Shown in pieces: positions 639 to 34,099 of a DNA stretch of 34,099 nt (the stretch's first letter is position 1; every line of letters starts with the position of its first letter). The notes beneath the pieces were generated by a model. The model worked only from the letters and a program-made list of their open reading frames with translations. It was not told the origin of the DNA and ran no database searches. This DNA comes from an uncultured Clostridia bacterium (GTDB taxonomy: Bacteria > Bacillota > Clostridia > UBA1212 > UBA1255). Location of the stretch: positions 1 to 34,099 of the forward strand of contig CANQOI010000024.1 in the NCBI GenBank assembly GCA_947625435.1, written 5' to 3'. Both the position numbers and the translations under genes were made by a program.

Positions 639-2009
639 TCAGTCTTTTTCTCCTTCCGTAAGCTTTTTTGTATTGTCATGGCTCAGTCTGCGCGCTATCG
701 TGTACGCGGCGTCCTCGCAGAGTTCGCCGGATTCTACCCATTCCGCGAGAAGCCCGCACAGTATCCTCCTGAAATAGTCGTGTCTCACGTACGACATGAA
801 GCTCCTGCTGTCCGTGAGCATTCCGGGAAATCCCGCTATGTATCCCGTCTCGGCCACCGTCTCAAGCACGTCGCGTATACCGCGCTTGTGGTCGCAGAAC
901 CACCACGCCGCGCCGCATTTTACGTTCCTGAAGCTGCCGCAGGCTGCGCAGAGAGCCGTCAGCTCCGACGGGTTCAATGAATATATGACAGTCTCGGGAA
1001 GTCCCCCGTTTGAGTTTATCAGGTCGAGCATGTGTAAAATGTTATTCACGCTGAGAGCGTCGTTTACGGCATCTCCCCCGGCATCCGCTCCGCACAGTCC
1101 GAAAAGGCGCGTATTCACATTTCTGAGCACCGAAGTGTGCCACTGCATGACAATGTCATTTGCCCTGTATTCTTCGGCTAAAAATACATACATGTTCCCT
1201 AAGAAGCCCTCGTATTCTTCCTGTGTCACGCCGGCGCCGCCCAGTGCCTTTTGAAATACGGCGCCCGCCTGCGCGTCGCTCGCGGCACTTCCCGGGAACA
1301 CCTGTATCCCCACATCCGAGAAACGGCAGCCCGCCTCTTTAAAATATGCGAGTCTTTTTGCGAGCGCATATTTCAGATCCGCCAGCGTACGTATTTCCGT
1401 GTCCGCGGCCTGCGAAAGCCTGCTTATGTATTCGGGGTATTTAACGTCGGTCATGCCGAGAGCCCTGTCCGTGCGGAAAGAAGGCGTGATCCTGCATGTG
1501 AGAGCCGCGTCGTTTCCGAGCATTTTATGGTATTCGAGCGTGTCCGCCGGGTCATCGGTGGTAGCGATATATTTTACGCGGGAACGCTCCGTCATTTTAC
1601 GGGGAGAGAGTTTTTCTTTTTTTATGATATCGTTGGCTTCTTCCCATATCTCGCGGGCGGTGCGGGGACTCAGCGTCTTTTCTATGCCGAAATATCGGGA
1701 AAGCTCCATTTGAGTCCAGTGATACAGCGGATTACCGGCGGCCAGCTCTATGGCCTTAGCATATGCGGCAAATTTCTCGTAATCGCCGGCGCCGCCCGTT
1801 ATGAGCTCCTCCGGTATGCCCGCCGCGCGCATGAGACGCCATTTGTAGTGGTCGTGGGAAAGCCACATGTCGCCTATGTTGCCGAAAACCTCGTCGCGGG
1901 CTATCTCCTCCGGGCTCAGATGGCAGTGATAATCGTATATGGGAAGATCCTTTACGGATCCGTAAAGAGCACGTGCCGTTTCGCTGTGCAAGAGCATTTC
2001 TTTATTCAT
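639..2009 (-). CDS. uxaC: Uronate isomerase (glucuronate/galacturonate isomerase)
   Basis: This enzyme interconverts D-glucuronate with D-fructuronate and D-galacturonate with D-tagaturonate, the entry step of hexuronate breakdown in the cytoplasm. At 456 residues it is full length for the family (about 470). The amidohydrolase-type metal motif DYHCHLS is at residues 26-32 (His28, His30). The segments MWLSHDHYKWRLMR, IATTDDP and MQWHTSVLRN are also characteristic. It is first in a two-gene unit with uxuA (one base between stop and start), behind a good promoter at 2067-2095. GAAAGGGG serves as a distant ribosome-binding site about 13 bases before the ATG, and CCCGAAAGGG next to it could form a small hairpin over it. 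Identification is secure; preference for galacturonate or glucuronate cannot be read from sequence. Confidence 0.96.
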   Translation of the reverse strand: MNKEMLLHSETARALYGSVKDLPIYDYHCHLSPEEIARDEVFGNIGDMWLSHDHYKWRLMRAAGIPEELITGGAGDYEKFAAYAKAIELAAGNPLYHWTQMELSRYFGIEKTLSPRTAREIWEEANDIIKKEKLSPRKMTERSRVKYIATTDDPADTLEYHKMLGNDAALTCRITPSFRTDRALGMTDVKYPEYISRLSQAADTEIRTLADLKYALAKRLAYFKEAGCRFSDVGIQVFPGSAASDAQAGAVFQKALGGAGVTQEEYEGFLGNMYVFLAEEYRANDIVMQWHTSVLRNVNTRLFGLCGADAGGDAVNDALSVNNILHMLDLINSNGGLPETVIYSLNPSELTALCAACGSFRNVKCGAAWWFCDHKRGIRDVLETVAETGYIAGFPGMLTDSRSFMSYVRHDYFRRILCGLLAEWVESGELCEDAAYTIARRLSHDNTKKLTEGEKD

Positions 2010-5280: not shown

Positions 5281-6012
5281 ATGCAAAAAAGCGACAAAAA
5301 CATCAGGAGCCAGATAACAAACATAATATTAAAGGCACTTCCTATAACAGGCGTAGTCATCACCGTGCTCATACTCATACTCATCGGCAAGCGCATAACT
5401 CTTGACGATATAATGCGCTTCAGGATGAACGACGTGTGGCTCGCATCTCTTTACCTTGTATGCGCGTATGCAGTAAAGAGTATCCTCATAGTGGTGCCTT
5501 TGAACCTGCTCATGATAGCCGGCGGCATGTTTTTCAACTCGCGCATGCTCTCTCTGTGCGTAAATACGGTAGGCGTCGCAGTGTGCCTCACACTCCCGTA
5601 CCTGCTGGGCCGCCTCATAGGCGAAAAGACGGCCGGTAAATTCATACAAAAATACGACAAGCGCGGCCTGATAGCGCGTATAGGACGCATACAGTCCGAG
5701 AACAGCTTCTTCATCTCATATATAATGCGCGTCATAGGGTTCATTCCCTGCGATATACTGAGCATATACATGGGCGCGTGCCGCATATCGTTCGTAAAAT
5801 ATATAACGGGCGCCGTGCTCGGCTGCGTGCCTTCCATAATAACCGTCACGCTCGTAGGAGCGAGCATAACGGAGCCGGGATCTCCCATGTTCATCATTTC
5901 AGTGGCTATACATCTTCTTTTGTCTGTGATATCATCATTAATATACAGAAATTTCTTAAAGAAACGCGGAGGAAAACAGCATGGAACAGAACAGTCAGTC
6001 GAAGCTGTATAA
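5281..6012 (+). CDS. VTT-domain (TVP38/TMEM64-like) membrane protein
   Basis: 243-residue integral membrane protein. Helices are visible at about residues 17-37, 50-75 (including LYLVCAYAVKSILIVVPLNLL), 80-105, 140-165 and 180-230. The arrangement of VVPLNLLMIAGGMFF, LLGRLIGE and a late VGFIPCDILSIYMGA segment matches the VTT/DedA-related family, whose members move or maintain lipids in bacterial membranes; the precise role of this one is unknown. AGGTGGG precedes the ATG. The last 32 bases overlap the start of the alkyltransferase/beta-helix gene, suggesting coupled translation. It shares no obvious function with that gene. Confidence 0.8.
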   Translation: MQKSDKNIRSQITNIILKALPITGVVITVLILILIGKRITLDDIMRFRMNDVWLASLYLVCAYAVKSILIVVPLNLLMIAGGMFFNSRMLSLCVNTVGVAVCLTLPYLLGRLIGEKTAGKFIQKYDKRGLIARIGRIQSENSFFISYIMRVIGFIPCDILSIYMGACRISFVKYITGAVLGCVPSIITVTLVGASITEPGSPMFIISVAIHLLLSVISSLIYRNFLKKRGGKQHGTEQSVEAV

Positions 6013-9000
6013 GGATTATTTACCCGTCCGATGCGGCAATTCGGATGAAATATTCGAGATCACCGCGGATGATGAATACGTCCTTTCGATAACGGCCGTA
6101 TCGGATAAGCTGAGCGGCATGCAGGACGCGGCGCCCAACCGCTGCACGGAGCTGTGCAAAGAACAGCTTAAAGAATATTTCACGGGTATGAGGCGCGTGT
6201 TCAATTTCCCGTACAGACTCACCGGAACGGACTTTCAGAACGCGATATGGAGTGAGATCGCAAAGGTCCCGTACGGTAAAACGATATCGTACAAGGAGCT
6301 TGCCGAGCGCGCCGGATGCACTTCGGGAGTGCGCGCTGCCGCAAACGCCGCCGGTGCGAACAGATTGCTGTTCTGCGTTCCGTGCCACCGCATAATAGGA
6401 AGCGACGGCTCCCTTACCGGTTTTTCCGCGGGAATCAAGCTCAAGGAATATCTTCTGAATCTTGAAAAGGAGCCCGCCGTATACACAAAATACAATTATT
6501 ACGAAAAGCAGAAGGAGCGCGGTATAGACAGAAGCAACGTGATAACGGGCAGGTTCATATACGATACGGGCGACATACTTTTTGAAACTGAGCCGGACTC
6601 CGTTATAAAGGAGCATAAAACTTATGTATTCCCCGTTTCGTTCGATGTGGGCGGCTGCTCCGGATTCACCGTGAAATGCTTCAGCGAGGCCGAAGAGACG
6701 CCGCCGGATCCGGCGTATGCCACAGGCGCGTACACCGCTTTCGGTCAGGTAACGCACGGCCCGGGTCATGAATTCATTACCGTGACCATGTTCAACGTAT
6801 CCAATTCGTTCGTATCGAGAGCGCCCGTGTCTCCCGGAGAGAACACCATAAATTTTGACATAAACGAAATGAACTTCACCCACGTTTCAAAAATATCCGT
6901 GGTGTCGGACGTGCCTCTCAGGAACATTCAGATATACGGGCTTAACGTGTATGACCAGTATTTCAGGTATAAAGGGCAGAGCAGATTTTACGGCGCGTCG
7001 GGCTGCACGCTTTCGGAAGAGGGACACACGCTCGTGTGTAAAATGAACGGCGCATTTGAAATAGAGAGCCCCGTTTTACCCGATTCGTCCCATTACGCCT
7101 GCAACATGCTCATGCCGCGCAGGAACACCGTATTTATGGTGTTAAAGAACATTTCGACGGCATCGAAGCTCAGGCTTTATTATACGACAACGCTCCACAC
7201 AGAATACAGCGACGATAATTCGGTCGAGATAAGCATATCCCGCTCACCCGAATACAGGGCGTACTATTTTAACCTTTCGGCAACGCCGGGATGCGAGGGC
7301 AGACTGCTGAGGTTCAAGCTCGTTTCGTCGGGCATAGGAGAGATCGTGATACGCGAGTATTCATTTGAGGAGGAAAAACCCATTGTAAAACAGGCGGGTA
7401 AAATAACGTCGTGCACGGCCGCAAACGACATGATCACGGTAAAGGGCTGCATAGACCGCGAGCTCGCACAGGCAGGCGGTACCGTATCTATATACGAGAC
7501 GGACATGCGTGACGAGAGCATTTCACCGGACAGGAAGACTCTCCTTACGTCAGCCCCCGTGAAACGCCTTTGCACGGAGGGAGATACCGAGTTCGAGATA
7601 TCCGGCATACCCCTTAAAGGGAGTAAGATAACGAGGCTTTCTTCGCAGTTTGCGGCATATCTCACGCAGGACGGGGAGACGCTTCCCATAGGCGACAGAT
7701 TTTACATTGAAAACTACATGGATTTTGAGAACAACCCGTATGCCTTCACGCTTCCGGGCACGCGCGTGAGCGTTACGGACGCGCCTTTTAACGCAAAGGG
7801 CGACGCGTGCACCGATGACACGGATCCTATACAGGCCGCTATCGATTACGTCTGGAAGCAGGGCGGAGGCACCGTAGTCGTGCCGGGCCCGCTGCCGGAG
7901 GACCGCGTACAGAAATTTTACGGGAGACGCTACCGCGTCACAAATATCCTCATGAGGAGCCGCGTGGAGCTTCATTTTGAAAACGACACCGTGCTGTGGC
8001 AGTCCCCCGTGTACCGCGATTATAAGTATGTGCCCACATACGGCCACGACAAGGCGGTGCCTAACGTGTGCTGGACCCACTGCCTGCATGTGGCGAACCT
8101 GCCTACAGTGCAGTGTACGTCATGCGAATATGTCAAGATAACCGGTTTCGGTAAGATACGTTCTGTAGATACGGGTGCGGAAGAGGGCGTCGACATAGGC
8201 TCGTATTCTACGGGATGCCCCGACAGGATACATCAGATACCGATAGGATTTTACGAGTGCAGTCACCTTGAATTCCGCGATTTTGAGATAGTGAGATCGA
8301 ACAACTATCATTTCGGGCTTTACGGATGCGCGTATGTGTTCGCGGCGAACATCAAGATGCACGAGGTGCGCTGCGTGAGCGGAGACGGATTCGGCCTTTC
8401 TAAGGGATCGCACCACGTGATACTGAGCAGGAATTTCTTCCAGTCCAACGATGACGGCGTTGTACTGAGCGCCGGATATTTTGATCCGAGAGGCCTCGTA
8501 TGGTGGAAGTCGAGTCCGGGTAAAAGAGGCGGCACAAGGCATGTGCGCATTGCCCATTCTTACATAAATTCCGGCGGCGGCAAGGCGCTTGCGTTCATTA
8601 CGTGGGGCACCAACGACCCCGATTACGAGATGCAGGAGATATCGGATATAACGGCTTTCGACAATTATCTTATATGCGTAAATCCCGTGGGCGCATGGTA
8701 CGACAACCCGTATAACGGAAAACAGCCGTTTGACAACAGTGAGCTTGACGATTATTCTCCGGTCAAATCGGTACGCATTCTCGAAAACCGCTATGAGGGA
8801 AGCTGCACGTTCGGCCCCATACTCGCCACCGATGTCATCACCGACTGCGGGATCTATTCTGCGGACGATTTTCAGAATGGCGATTTCTGCATAAGCAGGC
8901 AGCCCAATCTGTCCAACTGGTCATATAAGAGGAATAAGAACAGGGATTCGGTGGCCGTTCATATGACAGACGGACGTCCCTGCGGCGTTCTCGGACATTT

Positions 9001-9295
9001 TACGGAAGGGGACGTGAGCCTTTATCAGGGGCTTCATCTTAAAGCCGGAGAACATGAGGGTATCTTTGAATTAAGGACGGGCGCTACGGGCGTATGGATC
9101 TTTGTGCAGGATATAAGGACGGGCGATATGATCGCGCAAAAGCATGTGTTATGCGAGAATGAATTTGCGGAAGAGGATATCGGATTCACTCTTACCGAGG
9201 ACGCGGACATTTATATAGGACTGCGCCACCCGGCGGATATGACTTCGGAGAGTGAAACGACCGAGCTGAGACGCGCGTCCATGCGACGCGCATGA
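5981..9295 (+). CDS. Alkylguanine-DNA alkyltransferase fused to GH28-like beta-helix hydrolase
   Basis: One uninterrupted frame of 1104 residues. Residues 1-163 form a complete Ogt/MGMT-type alkyltransferase: the DNA-binding section runs from FQNAIW (85-90) through GVRAAANAAGANRL, and the acceptor cysteine is Cys135 in PCHR (134-137), followed by GSLTGFSAG. Residues about 190-580 are beta-rich and unassigned. Residues about 600-960 resemble pectate-lyase-3/GH28 right-handed helices: NAKGDACTDDTDPIQAAID at 604-622, GGGTVVVP at 628-635, and acidic candidates Asp802 (SGDGFG) and Asp824-Asp825 (SNDDG). The usual GHG motif looks replaced by GGGK (about 865-868). A C-terminal beta-rich domain covers about 985-1104. 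There is no signal peptide, so it is cytoplasmic. GGAGG lies seven bases before the ATG. The hydrolase part would suit intracellular uronic-acid oligosaccharides, in line with nearby uxaC. The fusion is unusual; a lost stop codon between two genes is the main alternative, but no start with a ribosome-binding site is visible at the boundary. Confidence 0.85.
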   Translation: MEQNSQSKLYKDYLPVRCGNSDEIFEITADDEYVLSITAVSDKLSGMQDAAPNRCTELCKEQLKEYFTGMRRVFNFPYRLTGTDFQNAIWSEIAKVPYGKTISYKELAERAGCTSGVRAAANAAGANRLLFCVPCHRIIGSDGSLTGFSAGIKLKEYLLNLEKEPAVYTKYNYYEKQKERGIDRSNVITGRFIYDTGDILFETEPDSVIKEHKTYVFPVSFDVGGCSGFTVKCFSEAEETPPDPAYATGAYTAFGQVTHGPGHEFITVTMFNVSNSFVSRAPVSPGENTINFDINEMNFTHVSKISVVSDVPLRNIQIYGLNVYDQYFRYKGQSRFYGASGCTLSEEGHTLVCKMNGAFEIESPVLPDSSHYACNMLMPRRNTVFMVLKNISTASKLRLYYTTTLHTEYSDDNSVEISISRSPEYRAYYFNLSATPGCEGRLLRFKLVSSGIGEIVIREYSFEEEKPIVKQAGKITSCTAANDMITVKGCIDRELAQAGGTVSIYETDMRDESISPDRKTLLTSAPVKRLCTEGDTEFEISGIPLKGSKITRLSSQFAAYLTQDGETLPIGDRFYIENYMDFENNPYAFTLPGTRVSVTDAPFNAKGDACTDDTDPIQAAIDYVWKQGGGTVVVPGPLPEDRVQKFYGRRYRVTNILMRSRVELHFENDTVLWQSPVYRDYKYVPTYGHDKAVPNVCWTHCLHVANLPTVQCTSCEYVKITGFGKIRSVDTGAEEGVDIGSYSTGCPDRIHQIPIGFYECSHLEFRDFEIVRSNNYHFGLYGCAYVFAANIKMHEVRCVSGDGFGLSKGSHHVILSRNFFQSNDDGVVLSAGYFDPRGLVWWKSSPGKRGGTRHVRIAHSYINSGGGKALAFITWGTNDPDYEMQEISDITAFDNYLICVNPVGAWYDNPYNGKQPFDNSELDDYSPVKSVRILENRYEGSCTFGPILATDVITDCGIYSADDFQNGDFCISRQPNLSNWSYKRNKNRDSVAVHMTDGRPCGVLGHFTEGDVSLYQGLHLKAGEHEGIFELRTGATGVWIFVQDIRTGDMIAQKHVLCENEFAEEDIGFTLTEDADIYIGLRHPADMTSESETTELRRASMRRA

Positions 9296-27325: not shown

Positions 27326-30300
27326 TTATTTTACGTAAGAGCCGCGCTTTTTCCGGAGTATGAATATGACCGCGGAGGATGCCGCCATGAGGAATATGCC
27401 CGCTCCCATTATGATACGCATTCCCATGTCACCGCGCGCGCTTCCCGTGAACGGGAGCTCCGGCGCTTTGGCGTTCACGTACAGAAGGTATATCTCCTTG
27501 TCTTCCGCTGTGATCGTACCGCTCACGGTGCCCTCCCGATCGGTCGTCGGTTGAATACTTTCGGAATTTTCGTCATGCGGATCTGTCGTGACATGCTCGA
27601 GGTTATAGCCGTCCCGCCGGGTTTCCGCCACGGTGTATCCCGTATTCCTCGGAATGCCTGTTATCACAATCCTTTCCCCGTGTTTCAGTTTGAAGGTCGC
27701 GTAAATGGCGCCCGTCGGGTCTCCTCCTTCGTCTGTGACTTTGCTCCAAACATCGGTAAGCTTCGTCCCTGCGGCATCGTCTGCGCCGTATTTCATTACG
27801 ACCAGATCTTTCCCGTCAAGTGCGTCCTCCGCCGGGATTGCCGCAGCCGGCGTCAGCGTCACGGTAAAGTCAAACTCCTTCGTATTCAGATCGTCACCGA
27901 CGTTTTCGGTTTCGTATATCTTTTTCTGCACCGTGAGAGTGCCGTTGAATATCTGATTGTAGAAGTCCGCACGGTTATTATTTTCCGCGTCGCCCGGCGC
28001 CATTGTCAGATATGTCTCTATGTTATGCACAATCGTACCGGTCATCGTGAGCGCACCATCTGAGACTACTTTGTGATCAGTCTGATCGACAGCGGGATAC
28101 TTATTCGATTTCGTTTCTTTGACCGTGTATTTCGTTCCTGCCTCAAGACCGTATATCACGATCGCTTCGTTCGCCTTAAGCGTGACGGTATATGTGCCGG
28201 TTTCGTTTTTGTAAAGATTAATCGGCGCAAGATACTCTTCACCCGATGGGTCGGTCGGAAGAATATATGTTCGATACTCGCTCAGCTTCGGCGCGGTCGC
28301 CGGCATTTTATACGTTTTGCCTGTCGTTTTGTCCGTCCACGTCACGCCGTTCGATACAAAGTCATTTCTGCCTTTCCAGACGTACAGGTTCTCGGACTTT
28401 ATCGGTGTATCACCGGATTCGCCCTCGGCGGGTTTTGTAAGGGTAATTTCAAACATGAATTCCCGTTCCGGCGGATTCGCGACGATATGTCCTTCCTCAT
28501 CTACGATCTGCTTGGTTATCACGAGCAGATCCGGATCGACGGTATTTACAAAGTTTGCCGACTCCTCGAATGTGCCGGTATTGCCGAATACCGAGTACAC
28601 GCCGGTGTAATTAGTGTCGGACTTCGTATTCTCCGCCGGAAGCCCCGCCATTTCCTGCGTCTCGTCCTTTACGCCGAAGTGAACCGTCGGGGATGTGATG
28701 AAACGACCGATGTTGCGGATATAACCGGAGCCTTCGCCCTGGTAGTGGAAGTCCCGCATCTCGCCGTCCTTGAAGAAGTAGTGACGTACAGTATCTCTAT
28801 CTATTACTTCATCGCAGCCGCCCGCTTCCAAAGACTTGCAGCTCGGGTTGTCCAGTACGGTATGGGTCAACCCGGAGTTTTCGCCGGTCCGGACCCAGAA
28901 TGCCGAAGTTCCGTTTCTGCCGGCGTTCAGGAAGCCTGCCGGTTGGTGATGGTTGTCGCCGTTGGCACTCGCGTCCATGGTGGAATATGCTTCCCAGACC
29001 ATGGCGTTGGTATGGAAGAACGGTTCATAATGGACATAAGCGTCATCCTGAGCATCTCCGCTTTGATCAAGAGCCCACATCAAATCATTTTCCGTCACAT
29101 TGTTCGCGTATTTTTCGGGATACACATACTCCCCGTTGTCGTCTTTACCGCCATACTCACCAAAAGTCGACTTTTGGCCCGTCAAATCGTAATATACCGG
29201 CAATGACTGTTCACCGGGGCGATAGGTGCTGGAAGAGCCGACCTGCTGGGTATGTGTAATTTCCTTCAGGGCATAGCCCGCACCGATCTGGTCATCCGTC
29301 AATTTTTCGGTGACGCGGTACACGGAATTCGAGCCGATGCCGCTGAACAGCAGCGCCTCGCCGTGCTTTAACGTAAACCCGGCGGTGTTATTCGCGATAT
29401 CTTCGAGCGTAAGAGCCGATGGGAAGTAGTCCGGACGATCCGACTTAGGGATGATCTGATCGTAGAGGTCGTTCCCTGTCAACGGCGTATTCGACTCGTC
29501 TGTATAGTCTTTATATCCGAAGTATACGTCTTTCGTCCAATAGCTGCTGGACGTGCGATACGGCGTACTGAACGACATATCGGACGTTTCGGTTGATATG
29601 TCCGGGTCAATAGTGAGAAGCTCGAAATTTTCAAGAGCCTTTTCAAAGAGATCTTTATTGTTTTCAATATCGAAGTCGGTCGTATTAACAGGATCGACAT
29701 CTGTCCAGGCTGAATCAAACGTGTCAACGGGAACTAACCATACCTTCGCGGCATAGAACGTGCCCTTCTCGCCGCTCGCGCCGGAAGTCGTGACGTCGCC
29801 CGTATTAACGGTTCCGTTTCCGTCCACCGCATCGTTGTGGTATACGCGGAAACCTGTAGTGGAGGATCCGATTTCCGATGCAGATGCTCTGTTCCTCCCT
29901 ATGTACACATAGTACACGTTATTATCACCACATGGATCGCCGGCTTTATGTTCTACACTTCCCGCTTTGCAGTTCTCCGCATATACATATGTACTTGTCA
30001 CTCCGGAGTCAGTGCCCGGGTTAAGAATCAGTCTGCAGCCTTCACTGTCCACCATGGCTTTATTGCCGTCCTCTGTCTGGAGGAACAGCTTGCCGTCAAG
30101 CTCAAGGTCGATGTAATGATACTGGCGCTGCCAGCTGCCATTGCGGTATCTGACGACGACCGCCGTCTGCTTGCCGGTGACGCCTCTGATGTACAACTGG
30201 AAGTTGAACTCCTCGTTCGCGTCAATGTCAACGCCCTCGGGCGGGTCGATCAGCTTCGTGACAAGCAGCGTCGTGTCCATGACCGTCAGGCGCCCGTTGT

Positions 30301-33300
30301 TGCCGAGGTAGACGTTCACGATGATATCGTTCTCGCTCGCCTCCGACGTAGTGCTTATCGTCGGCAGGAAATAGTTGTTCGCCGTGCGCGTGACGTTGTC
30401 CCCGTAGAAGCCCCACGACATGCCGCTTGCGGTCAGGTCATCCGCATAGCGCTCGTTTTTGTAATAGTCTTCTATTGTTGCCTGCTCAGCGGCACTTGAA
30501 TATGCGCCGCCTTTTTCCCGGATCGCCTGCGCAAGCGTACCGACGCGCAATCCGCCCGGTTTCGCGCAAACCACCCATGTGCCGGTTGAATCAAAGCCAT
30601 CAGCCTGCGCGCATTCTCTCGGATCTTTCAGTACCATTTTGCCGGTTCCGTCGTCTTCATATATATCTGTCTTGCCGATATAGGCTTTACCGCGCGTCCT
30701 ATCCCCCGTCTCTGAATACGACAGATACGGGTAATTCTGCAAATTTTTTCCGCTGACGTCATGCCAGCACAGCATATCGCCGTTTGTGATGCCGGATGCT
30801 TCATATGCGGAGCCGAACTCGCTGCCCTTACGGGTGATGACGTACTGCATCTTGGCGGCGGTTTTGTCGCCCTTTAACTCGTAATACTCGATCGCGAGAT
30901 AGAAATAGTCGTTCGAGCTGAAGGGGTCGTGGGCGTCAGGTTCTTCGGGTTTATCAACTTCATCGAGACGATGATTCTCCAAAAGGATAATATCGCCGTC
31001 GTGTACCGTCGTGATCTGTTTTTCTGCAAGGGCGTCCCAAATAGCTTTTTGACGCTCCGCAACCGTTCCTTGGGTATTCGTCGGGTTCAGATCCTGGGCG
31101 ATCATTCTTCCGCCGAAATCTGCAGCATTAAACGTTTGCGCGTCAGAATCTTCGTCGGCGTCTTCATCGATCACGACTTTCTTCCAGTTTCCTTGCTCCG
31201 CCGTGTAAATCACGTCCTTATTCGAATTTGGCTCGTTCGGCACCCAAATATACGCCATGTTATAAAGCGGCAGGGCCTTTTCAAACGCATAGTAGCGGTT
31301 GTCGGTGCTGGGAGAGAAGGAGGTCACCGGGTCGCCGTACGTATAGTCCGTGTTGGTGGTGGCGTAGTTGCTGTAACGATTCAGCGGGTTGTACCAGTTG
31401 GAGAAGAACTCAATATTGCCTTGCGCGATGCCGCGCGCAGCAGCAGCCGCCGCAGTCGTGACCTTATTCTTCTTGATATATTCCGCGCTGATGGCGCCGG
31501 CGACGTTGACACGTCCATTTTCCAGCACCTCATCGCTCATGCCGACGGTGTAGAACACGCGCAGGGGGAATGCGAAGTTGGTTTCGTAGGTAAAGTTCCC
31601 TGCCGCATCCCCATTGATGGTGATCGTCCGAAGCGGCAGCATATTCCCGGGGATGTTGACCCACAGGGCCTCGTCAAAGTTGGTATCGGTCATAGCGCCG
31701 CCGGTGGACGGGTCACTGTAATCGCCGGTGTCCTCCACCCAGATGCGCAGATCTGCAAGCGCGTACACGCCGAGGGTATTCAAATGCTGCTGATCATTCG
31801 TATACGTCACATTGCCGGGAATGTCCGCGTCACTGCCGTATGCAGGATTCATGTGAAGTATTTTGCGATCGGTATCGGGCAAGTCGATTCGGTAGAAGGT
31901 ATACTCGGTGGCCTTCTGCTTGGCGCTGGCTTGACCGACGTTATTAATATCCTTCAGCGTCGGCACGAACTGTGCGGCAGTATCGGCGTCGAGCCGGTAG
32001 ACCCAGCCGTTATCCCAAGCGTCCTCAACCTTCGTGTAATTACCTTGATTAGGTCGATCATCTTTGCCGCCATATGTAGCATTCTTAGCACCGTCAGACC
32101 CGTTCAGGTACCAACCTGCTTGGAACGGGCTGCCCTTCCTGTCGTGCTCTGTCATATACTCGTCGTTCCATCCGTAGTCGTACACAGCGGTTTTAACGAC
32201 GTTGTACATCGTGCCGAACAGAACCAGGTTTTTGACGTTCTTCACGTCCATGTACTTGCCCACCGGGTCCATGTAGGTGACGGCGTTGCCCACGCCCAGG
32301 TCGTTCTCACCGCTTACCGGCGCAAAGATGGTTGTGGTGATTTGTTCCGTGATCTGCCGGAAGATGTCGCCGATCGTCCCGGTCGTAGCGTTATAGAATC
32401 GGTCAATGTAGTAAACATCTTCGAGACTTGTAACATCGTATTTTCTGTTGCCCTGCGACGAAGAATCGCTGTCTCCTGACGGATGTGAAAAAGTCCAAGT
32501 AGCAGACAAAGCAGTACGAACCCACGTCATACCGGAAAAATTTCTTGTGACGCTTGATGATGTGGCGATGTATTCGTTCAAGGTTTGGTATACCTTTTGC
32601 AATTCACCTGTTCCGCCGGACGTATCAGCTCTATCTATAATATATTGCCTTGGATTCATCGTGCCATATAGCTGCGCCCACTGAAGCCCGCCTTCTGCAT
32701 ATGTGTTGTTGCCAGCAGGCGTAATGTTCAAACCGATTCCGAATCCGGTGAGGGAAACTTCATTACCGCCGTTTTCTGTCGTATAATGATCCTCAATCCA
32801 GTTCTTCATGTAACCGGCGGTCAATAACACTGCGGTCGTTCTCGGAGCAACCGATGTCAATGAAGCAGAATTGGTATCCGCAATATAAATCGGGTTTCCG
32901 TTGGGAACGCCATACGCTTCGTTATTATTATGACTATTCTTTATCCTCGGCACAATGGCAGAAATATGTTTATCCGTGCAGGTAACTGTCTGGGAAGGCT
33001 GATTTTCAGTATATGTCTTGCCCTGTGCCCAGCTCAACGGATCCCAAAACTGAATATTGGTCGGATTAGGCGTAATTGATTGTCTGTCAGCTTGGAACAT
33101 AGTACCTGTCCTGGTTGCACCAACAATGTTTGTAGCACCGTCCGTCAGTGTTATAAGAATCGGCTGACGAGATACTTGTCGTCCGTTCTCCGTTATCGTC
33201 GTATTAGTCGCTGTTGCAAGCATATACATTCCTTGGTATAACGCCGCCTGCAAGTAAGTGGAGTCGGCAAGCATATATTCGCTTCTTTTTGAAAAGTTCT

Positions 33301-34084
33301 TGGCCGTCGCCGTAATTCTCGGAAAATAGTGAGAACTTTGATCGTCATATTCAGAATGTGGTTGATATTCATTATTAACACTTAAGAAAGCTGTATTTCC
33401 GTCCTTCTCATAATGTGCCAGCGGGAACAATACCTGTGCACCGCCGCCGTAAACCACAACACCTACACGATTGTTGTCATGTATGGAAGGATCGTTGTCA
33501 ACTTTCATCAACTTATCGATGAGCTCATTAGCGTCATTTATGACTTCGTGCATGGCATCGGTTTCTGTTCCGTCCGTCATTGATGTGGAAATATCCAACA
33601 AAAGTACAACATCCAGCGGACGAGCGTTTTCCGTATTGACGTTCTGGCTCGAGCCGAGCACGCTGTACACGTGGAGGAAATCTTCGTCAAGCGTGATGCT
33701 GCCGTTCACGCCGTCGTCATCCGCGGTCAGCGTGAGGGTAGTCCCGTTCCAGTTTCCGTCCTTGGAATTTTCAGCATCGCCCAGCGCGAACACAGTCTTA
33801 TCCGACCAGAGACGACCGGCATAGCGGGTATTCTCCGAGAAACTCAGCATCTCCTTGTAGGTATCCATCGTACTCGGATCGGCTTGCCGCGTGACGCCCG
33901 ATGTAGCACCCGACGAACCGGCGGCTTGTGCGTCCATCGATATCATGCTGCGAAAGCCGAACATCATTGGTATCACCATGCACAGACACAGCAAAAGTGA
34001 AAGAAATCTGCGGCCGTAATGCTCGCAAACCCTATGCCTGCGCCTTGTATTCCTGTTTTTATCAGCACTGTGTAACGTTCTCAT
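27326..34084 (-). CDS. Giant LPXTG-anchored VWA surface protein with isopeptide-type domains
   Basis: 2252 residues, exported and covalently wall-bound. A basic head and hydrophobic stretch (about 27-47) lead to a likely signal-peptidase site near AQAA (52-55). A von Willebrand A domain begins near 157 with MIDAS DISTS (164-168) and continues to TLTDGAT. A long region of unrecognised beta-rich sequence follows. Three domains share the L-x-V-x-K start, EF-x-F strand, GEA/ERI hydrophobic strand and Y-x-V-x-E end of CnaB/SpaA-like folds: starting lysines near 1276, 1858 and 2054; glutamates near 1590, 1990 and 2154; closing asparagines near 1847, 2043 and 2204. The sorting signal is LPFTG (2210-2214), a helix, then RKKR. 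GGAGG lies ten bases before the ATG; the promoter is outside the window. It resembles tip adhesins of sortase pili, but no pilin or sortase is adjacent. Ligand unknown. Confidence 0.88.
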   Translation of the reverse strand: MRTLHSADKNRNTRRRHRVCEHYGRRFLSLLLCLCMVIPMMFGFRSMISMDAQAAGSSGATSGVTRQADPSTMDTYKEMLSFSENTRYAGRLWSDKTVFALGDAENSKDGNWNGTTLTLTADDDGVNGSITLDEDFLHVYSVLGSSQNVNTENARPLDVVLLLDISTSMTDGTETDAMHEVINDANELIDKLMKVDNDPSIHDNNRVGVVVYGGGAQVLFPLAHYEKDGNTAFLSVNNEYQPHSEYDDQSSHYFPRITATAKNFSKRSEYMLADSTYLQAALYQGMYMLATATNTTITENGRQVSRQPILITLTDGATNIVGATRTGTMFQADRQSITPNPTNIQFWDPLSWAQGKTYTENQPSQTVTCTDKHISAIVPRIKNSHNNNEAYGVPNGNPIYIADTNSASLTSVAPRTTAVLLTAGYMKNWIEDHYTTENGGNEVSLTGFGIGLNITPAGNNTYAEGGLQWAQLYGTMNPRQYIIDRADTSGGTGELQKVYQTLNEYIATSSSVTRNFSGMTWVRTALSATWTFSHPSGDSDSSSQGNRKYDVTSLEDVYYIDRFYNATTGTIGDIFRQITEQITTTIFAPVSGENDLGVGNAVTYMDPVGKYMDVKNVKNLVLFGTMYNVVKTAVYDYGWNDEYMTEHDRKGSPFQAGWYLNGSDGAKNATYGGKDDRPNQGNYTKVEDAWDNGWVYRLDADTAAQFVPTLKDINNVGQASAKQKATEYTFYRIDLPDTDRKILHMNPAYGSDADIPGNVTYTNDQQHLNTLGVYALADLRIWVEDTGDYSDPSTGGAMTDTNFDEALWVNIPGNMLPLRTITINGDAAGNFTYETNFAFPLRVFYTVGMSDEVLENGRVNVAGAISAEYIKKNKVTTAAAAAARGIAQGNIEFFSNWYNPLNRYSNYATTNTDYTYGDPVTSFSPSTDNRYYAFEKALPLYNMAYIWVPNEPNSNKDVIYTAEQGNWKKVVIDEDADEDSDAQTFNAADFGGRMIAQDLNPTNTQGTVAERQKAIWDALAEKQITTVHDGDIILLENHRLDEVDKPEEPDAHDPFSSNDYFYLAIEYYELKGDKTAAKMQYVITRKGSEFGSAYEASGITNGDMLCWHDVSGKNLQNYPYLSYSETGDRTRGKAYIGKTDIYEDDGTGKMVLKDPRECAQADGFDSTGTWVVCAKPGGLRVGTLAQAIREKGGAYSSAAEQATIEDYYKNERYADDLTASGMSWGFYGDNVTRTANNYFLPTISTTSEASENDIIVNVYLGNNGRLTVMDTTLLVTKLIDPPEGVDIDANEEFNFQLYIRGVTGKQTAVVVRYRNGSWQRQYHYIDLELDGKLFLQTEDGNKAMVDSEGCRLILNPGTDSGVTSTYVYAENCKAGSVEHKAGDPCGDNNVYYVYIGRNRASASEIGSSTTGFRVYHNDAVDGNGTVNTGDVTTSGASGEKGTFYAAKVWLVPVDTFDSAWTDVDPVNTTDFDIENNKDLFEKALENFELLTIDPDISTETSDMSFSTPYRTSSSYWTKDVYFGYKDYTDESNTPLTGNDLYDQIIPKSDRPDYFPSALTLEDIANNTAGFTLKHGEALLFSGIGSNSVYRVTEKLTDDQIGAGYALKEITHTQQVGSSSTYRPGEQSLPVYYDLTGQKSTFGEYGGKDDNGEYVYPEKYANNVTENDLMWALDQSGDAQDDAYVHYEPFFHTNAMVWEAYSTMDASANGDNHHQPAGFLNAGRNGTSAFWVRTGENSGLTHTVLDNPSCKSLEAGGCDEVIDRDTVRHYFFKDGEMRDFHYQGEGSGYIRNIGRFITSPTVHFGVKDETQEMAGLPAENTKSDTNYTGVYSVFGNTGTFEESANFVNTVDPDLLVITKQIVDEEGHIVANPPEREFMFEITLTKPAEGESGDTPIKSENLYVWKGRNDFVSNGVTWTDKTTGKTYKMPATAPKLSEYRTYILPTDPSGEEYLAPINLYKNETGTYTVTLKANEAIVIYGLEAGTKYTVKETKSNKYPAVDQTDHKVVSDGALTMTGTIVHNIETYLTMAPGDAENNNRADFYNQIFNGTLTVQKKIYETENVGDDLNTKEFDFTVTLTPAAAIPAEDALDGKDLVVMKYGADDAAGTKLTDVWSKVTDEGGDPTGAIYATFKLKHGERIVITGIPRNTGYTVAETRRDGYNLEHVTTDPHDENSESIQPTTDREGTVSGTITAEDKEIYLLYVNAKAPELPFTGSARGDMGMRIIMGAGIFLMAASSAVIFILRKKRGSYVK

Positions 34085-34099
34085 TTTGTCATTACCTCC

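Follow-up and report, generated by a model that had tools for sequence, protein, structure and literature searches.

We analyzed a 34,099-nt contig of an uncultured Clostridia bacterium (assembly GCA_947625435.1, contig CANQOI010000024.1; hereafter the window), in which a single 1104-aa open reading frame (ORF) joins an O6-alkylguanine-DNA alkyltransferase domain (AGT, or Ogt) to beta domains, a parallel beta-helix resembling glycoside hydrolase (GH) family 28 and a C-terminal beta domain (Table 1). A sequence-only reading of this DNA had described a stop-free frame holding a complete Ogt domain, with PCHR at 134-137, and a GH28-like helix, and the ORF with its domain matches confirms that description. 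The genome of the window (G000) is fragmented into 86 contigs, and 4 further genomes of the same genus (g1) carry the fusion (G001 to G004).

The AGT half is recognized by family profiles and by fold. PF01035 covers residues 84-163 of the window protein (E=1e-25, 89.8 bits against a cut-off of 27), the ogt family TIGR00589 matches at E=1.4e-27 (95.5 bits, cut-off 46.4), and the AGT model superposes on the Mycobacterium tuberculosis OGT structure 4wxc with a template modelling score of 0.82 over 165 columns in Foldseek. The hallmarks Y104, R118 (the Arg finger) and N127 are present in the window copy. AGTs are single-turnover repair proteins, and this half would work as an ordinary member of the family, flipping out O6-alkylguanine and transferring the alkyl group irreversibly onto Cys135.

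For the second half, a structure model of the window protein (mean predicted local distance difference test score 84.5) was combined with profile searches. Results showed that the helix fold matches 3jur, 5olp and 1bhe (Z of 31.9, 31.7 and 29.8, respectively), while a profile search against PDB returned 5olp (6e-22) and 3jur (8e-20). The NCBIfam relatives are a rhamnogalacturonidase (2e-8) and the polygalacturonase PglB (5e-8). The GH28-like helix proposed from the sequence is therefore confirmed by NCBIfam, PDB profiles and fold, and is seen weakly by Pfam (PF12708, E=0.14; no match to the GH28 family PF00295 in a Pfam scan of the window protein). Compared with the exo-polygalacturonase/galacturonidase structures 3jur and 5olp, the window protein shares the right-handed beta-helix (Z about 32) and three catalytic-type aspartates in the same order, but it shows 18-20% identity, has no Pfam GH28 match, carries extra beta domains and lacks a signal peptide; in addition, the His of the G-H-G motif is replaced in the GGGK stretch of the fusions and of the clade without signal peptides. 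No DNA-acting family was matched in this half by Pfam and NCBIfam scans of the window protein. Among the fusions, conservation is highest in the GH core (71-84% identity). The preceding beta region is common to unfused relatives from about residue 260, their matches beginning at residues 256-360, and taken alone it gave weak fold matches, best to GH85 enzymes. Considering fold and residues together, the GH half is most likely an exo-acting cytosolic hydrolase of uronic-acid oligosaccharides.

We looked for the same architecture in related Clostridia. Each of the five searchable genomes of the genus carries the full-length fusion (58-65% identity). No two-gene version was found within the genus, and none of the five copies has a stop or a separate gene at residue 165. 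Four of these genomes are separately deposited metagenome-assembled genomes (MAGs; CAJFUB01, JAGAQK01, JAFZEI01 and SVJD01), 2 of the MAGs coming from water deer and water buffalo gut; the genus consists of uncultured gut Clostridia, ruminant species included. Outside the genus, no single match spanning both halves was found in 31 genomes of the order or in a class-level sample of 391. Scans of genome_contigs gave no match with a single sequence and, with an alignment, only the four genus members and AGT-only matches. The fusion is real, genus-wide and old, as it is full-length in five genomes, has a boundary without a stop and is absent from the sampled outgroups; a chance frame is ruled out by the full-length homologues at 58-65% in four other genomes.

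Translation signals point in the same direction. The only strong Shine-Dalgarno (SD) sequence precedes the ATG at 5981, and its pairing with the anti-SD is computed at -9.5 kcal/mol for the window copy and at -9.3 to -10.8 kcal/mol across the 4 intact copies. Among in-frame ATG, GTG and TTG codons at residues 100-300 of the window copy, none had a pairing better than -3.3 kcal/mol, and no internal start codon near the domain boundary was conserved in position across the five fusion copies; G001 provides the exception among the weak internal sites, a single GTG at residue 195 with an SD of -5.9 kcal/mol. The sequence-only reading had noted the lack of a boundary start with a ribosome-binding site and preferred one polypeptide, and both points hold up: the same frame with one conserved start and SD supports translation of 5981-9295 as one chain, as we infer from the single frame and single start.

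How could a sugar enzyme with secreted relatives come to share a chain with a DNA-repair protein? No N-terminal hydrophobic segment was detected in the four intact fusions by a crude hydropathy index, which is no dedicated signal-peptide predictor, unlike in the secreted paralogues, which rules out, at the resolution of that index, a misfiled secreted enzyme. One such paralogue, L002, lies in G000 itself (42% identical; PF00295 at 23.8 bits against a cut-off of 22.9). In a tree of 23 GH halves, the fusions are monophyletic (100/100) and fall within a clade without signal peptides (99/97), whose members carry GGGK and no N-terminal hydrophobic segment, whereas the relatives with a hydrophobic segment carry GGHG. 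A second, more distant GH28-like paralogue was also present in 3 of the 5 genus members (L007 in G004, L008 in G002, L009 in G003); it has no hydrophobic segment at its N-terminus, and its residues at the GGHG position are TAS. In a tree of 70 AGT sequences, the five fused domains stand apart from the standalone AGTs of the order (separating branch 99/92), and the nearest donor was not resolved, the branches of this tree being long. These trees fit one fusion event. A cytosolic location is probable for both halves: most simply, the hydrolase would already have been cytosolic when the AGT joined it, which would remove the apparent conflict between a secreted enzyme and DNA repair. By this scheme, a GH28-like gene whose product was already cytosolic would have gained an AGT gene at its 5' end, once, in an ancestor of the genus. 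The flanking regions read showed no ogt beside unfused GH genes, and so no example of the two genes as neighbours before fusion.

We then compared the AGT active site among the five species. The hallmark positions checked are intact in G000, G003 and G004. G002 retains the cysteine and has Cys at both the Tyr104 and the Asn127 positions, and G001 has PVHR (Val for Cys135), Cys for Tyr104 and Ala for Arg118, plus small indels; the Arg118 change alone means little, because most standalone AGTs of the order have Gln there. PF01035 matches nothing but the fused domain in G000, G002, G003 and G004, and G001 has two further PF01035 genes (C39, with PCHR, Tyr and Asn; C8, shorter, with PCHR). Thus, the active-site cysteine is lost only in the genome with two spare AGT-family genes, and the GH half stays conserved there. 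Branch lengths of the AGT core are raised over those of the GH half in G002 (0.45 versus 0.14) and G001 (0.31 versus 0.12) and not in G000 and G004, with G003 raised to an intermediate ratio of 2.1 despite an intact site; this contrast comes from 80 residues of five sequences, and dN/dS ratios were set aside as synonymous sites were mostly saturated.

Taken together, these data make it likely that the ORF is a genuine genus-conserved fusion of two enzymes in one frame behind one start, of single ancestral origin, with activities that are most likely uncoupled. The sequence-only reading had proposed that a real fusion would co-express repair with sugar breakdown; the shared frame agrees with this in part, but coupling is not maintained across the genus, as G001 has lost the cysteine and G002 has changed two other active-site residues. 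The AGT and GH activities would not be mechanistically coupled, the sugar half holding the conserved function and the AGT frame persisting even where its active site decays, since without an internal start the AGT half could not simply be dropped without losing the GH half. The link between AGT and sugar enzyme is probably incidental, that is, two jobs on one chain rather than a new machine.

Several points weigh against this interpretation. First, the G004 copy is interrupted in frame by a TAA where the window protein has residue 579 (L004:3064-3066, minus strand, G004:C19), a nonsense change or a sequencing error, far from the AGT/GH boundary. Second, the single protein and either activity rest on sequence and models. 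Third, the AGT site is intact in 3 of the 5 species, where selection may therefore act on the repair half, and the branch-length contrast is moderate evidence given the few residues and sequences, the saturated synonymous sites and the ratio of G003. Finally, the uronate genes uxaC and uxuA lie on the other strand and do not adjoin the fusion in relatives, and a linkage to nfo in genus g4, described below, hints at a possible DNA-repair connection.

Among the alternatives, we considered whether the AGT domain may now be a structural or DNA-tethering module of the hydrolase and no longer a repair enzyme. A nearly full-length domain is kept in G001 despite the loss of cysteine, tyrosine and arginine, and both the frame and the ITGRF linker are conserved in all five copies, as this idea would predict. 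It is nonetheless unlikely, considering that 3 of the 5 species keep the checked hallmarks in what is there the sole AGT of the genome, as expected under selection for repair.

A second alternative is that the GH28-like clade itself takes part in DNA repair or the processing of nucleic acids, the AGT fusion and an nfo operon being its two outcomes. In five genomes of the sister genus g4, the gene of the unfused GH28-like relative is followed directly, on the same strand, by nfo (deoxyribonuclease IV, endonuclease IV) (Table 1; the GH copy of G015 is a contig-end fragment), and in G011 and G013 the stop of the GH gene overlaps the nfo start (ATGCTTAA); the AGT fusion in g1 would then be a second, independent association. 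However, each association is probably one event, and with two events coincidence could still be the explanation. The g4 cluster also has genes resembling a glucuronoyl esterase (G011, G013) and a TIM-barrel sugar isomerase (G009, G011, G013), and in the third genus, g11, the unfused relative has truA, a permease and a Spo0A-like gene as neighbours and no repair genes. Moreover, fold and aspartates alike are of the GH28 type, and if a coupling were needed, the AGT would not be expected to decay as it has in G001. For these reasons, we regard a repair role as improbable. The bolder form of this idea is about as improbable: a cytosolic clade drawn into DNA repair, fused to AGT in one genus and translationally coupled to the apurinic/apyrimidinic endonuclease IV in a sister genus, with damaged nucleic acid, or sugar-derived damage to DNA, as a possible target.

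With respect to the two-enzyme fusion, its expression as two products from overlapping frames, with an internal start giving a separate GH protein, is very improbable: in-frame GTG and ATG codons do exist (in the window copy, for example, residue 187 is a GTG), but no SD at residues 100-300 of that copy comes near the strength of that at the main start, and the boundary starts are not conserved in position in the five species. An assembly error or a recent stop-codon loss between two genes, to which the fragmented window genome could lend itself, has a next to negligible chance, as the same junction is shared by five genomes at 58-65% identity, independent MAGs among them, with no stop near residue 165, and as the unfused GH gene had no preceding ogt in the seven flanking regions inspected. 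The stop loss between neighbouring genes offered by the sequence-only reading is thus rejected as an artefact of sequencing or assembly, and would still be compatible with these data as an ancient ancestral event.

We also compared the fusion with known systems. Its first half resembles Ogt/AGT proteins (TIGR00589, PF01035; 4wxc) in the complete two-subdomain fold and PCHR, with Tyr, Arg and Asn in 3 of 5 copies, and differs from them in that about 940 residues of carbohydrate-enzyme sequence follow in the same frame. Like Ada (PRK15435), it has an AGT domain within a multidomain protein; in Ada, however, the AGT is C-terminal to the regulator, and an Ada-type regulator was rejected here since Pfam and NCBIfam gave no methylphosphotriester or AraC domain match. 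The statement of the sequence-only reading that alkyltransferases otherwise stand alone or are joined to Ada-type regulators was incomplete. AGT fusions on record are AGT-EndoV (endonuclease V) of Ferroplasma acidarmanus, the archaeal ATL-EndoV (ATL, alkyltransferase-like) and the histone-like Caenorhabditis elegans AGT-2 (PMC10779285). In all of them an AGT-type domain is fused to another functional domain, as in the window; their partner is an endonuclease or a histone-like domain, while the partner here, conserved in all five genus genomes, is a GH28-like carbohydrate-enzyme domain. No report of an AGT-glycosidase fusion was found in the literature searched, which does not prove its absence. 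Separately, one frame of a Clostridiaceae MAG (DUPE01000191.1, L076:155-1666) begins with a dihydrofolate reductase domain (PF00186, 1e-39) and has an AGT domain on its C-terminal side (PF01035, 4e-29), an apparent further fusion of AGT to a metabolic enzyme.

Domain fusion is widely used for predicting functional links between proteins. Here, an old and stable fusion joins a single-use repair protein to a multi-turnover sugar enzyme with no known link between them, and therefore offers a natural test of whether a conserved fusion implies shared function; of the five genomes, the one with spare AGT-family genes has lost the AGT site and has nonetheless kept the frame. If the nfo linkage is meaningful, it would point to an unknown role of the GH28-like clade near DNA repair.

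Table 1. Features of the fusion and of linked or related loci (positions in the window unless a locus is named).
Feature	Position	Strand	Basis
Single ORF, 1104 aa: Ogt/AGT, beta domains, GH28-like helix, C-terminal beta domain	5981-9295	+	ORF translation; full-length homologues in G001-G004
Shine-Dalgarno GGAGG, 8 nt 5' of start ATG 5981	5968-5972	+	sequence; anti-SD pairing
Complete Ogt/AGT, residues 1-163: N-terminal subdomain and DNA-binding/active-site domain	5981-6469	+	PF01035, TIGR00589, fold match
PCHR active-site motif, residues 134-137; C135, predicted acceptor cysteine	6380-6391	+	sequence; kept in G002-G004, PVHR in G001
Linker, residues 164-192; ITGRF at 188-192 in all five fusions	6470-6556	+	alignment; low model confidence at 165-172
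Beta-sandwich/immunoglobulin-like domains, residues 193-590	6557-7750	+	models; relatives' matches
GH28-like right-handed parallel beta-helix, residues 592-960	7754-8860	+	structural Z-scores; PDB profile matches
D802, GH28-type catalytic aspartate (SGDG)	8384-8386	+	every GH row with letters there; aligns with 3jur NDG
D824-D825, GH28-type catalytic DD pair (SNDDG)	8450-8455	+	every GH row with letters there; aligns with 3jur GDD
GGGK motif, residues 865-868; GGHG in secreted relatives; marks clade without signal peptides	8573-8584	+	alignment, tree, hydropathy
C-terminal beta domain, residues 961-1104	8861-9292	+	model; 52-68% identity among fusions
Mannonate dehydratase fragment (207 aa, family length 385, ends near contig end), jointly with complete glucuronate isomerase	56-679 and 639-2009	-	
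Unfused GH and nfo, genus g4 (G013)	L113:5468-9026		
Unfused GH and nfo, genus g4 (G011)	L120:5211-8820		
Unfused GH and nfo, genus g4 (G009)	L117:7208-10830		
Unfused GH and nfo, genus g4 (G010)	L114:2256-5907		
Unfused GH and nfo, genus g4 (G015)	L018		

Finally, we looked at the genes surrounding the fusion. Its upstream neighbour in the window is a VTT-domain gene with a 32-nt overlap, found upstream in G001 too, and downstream in all five genomes are a membrane-protein-like gene, sepF, a YggS-type gene and an HlyD-like gene; the direct neighbours are thus not sugar genes. The glucuronate isomerase and the mannonate dehydratase fragment lie 4-6 kb from the fusion on the opposite strand. 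Together with the esterase-like and isomerase-like genes close to the unfused relative in g4, this gene context weakly favours a uronate substrate. At the other end of the window, a frame of about 2250 aa (27326-34099, minus strand) with a VWA domain and DUF7601/DUF5979 matches reaches the contig end and is probably a large cell-surface adhesin.

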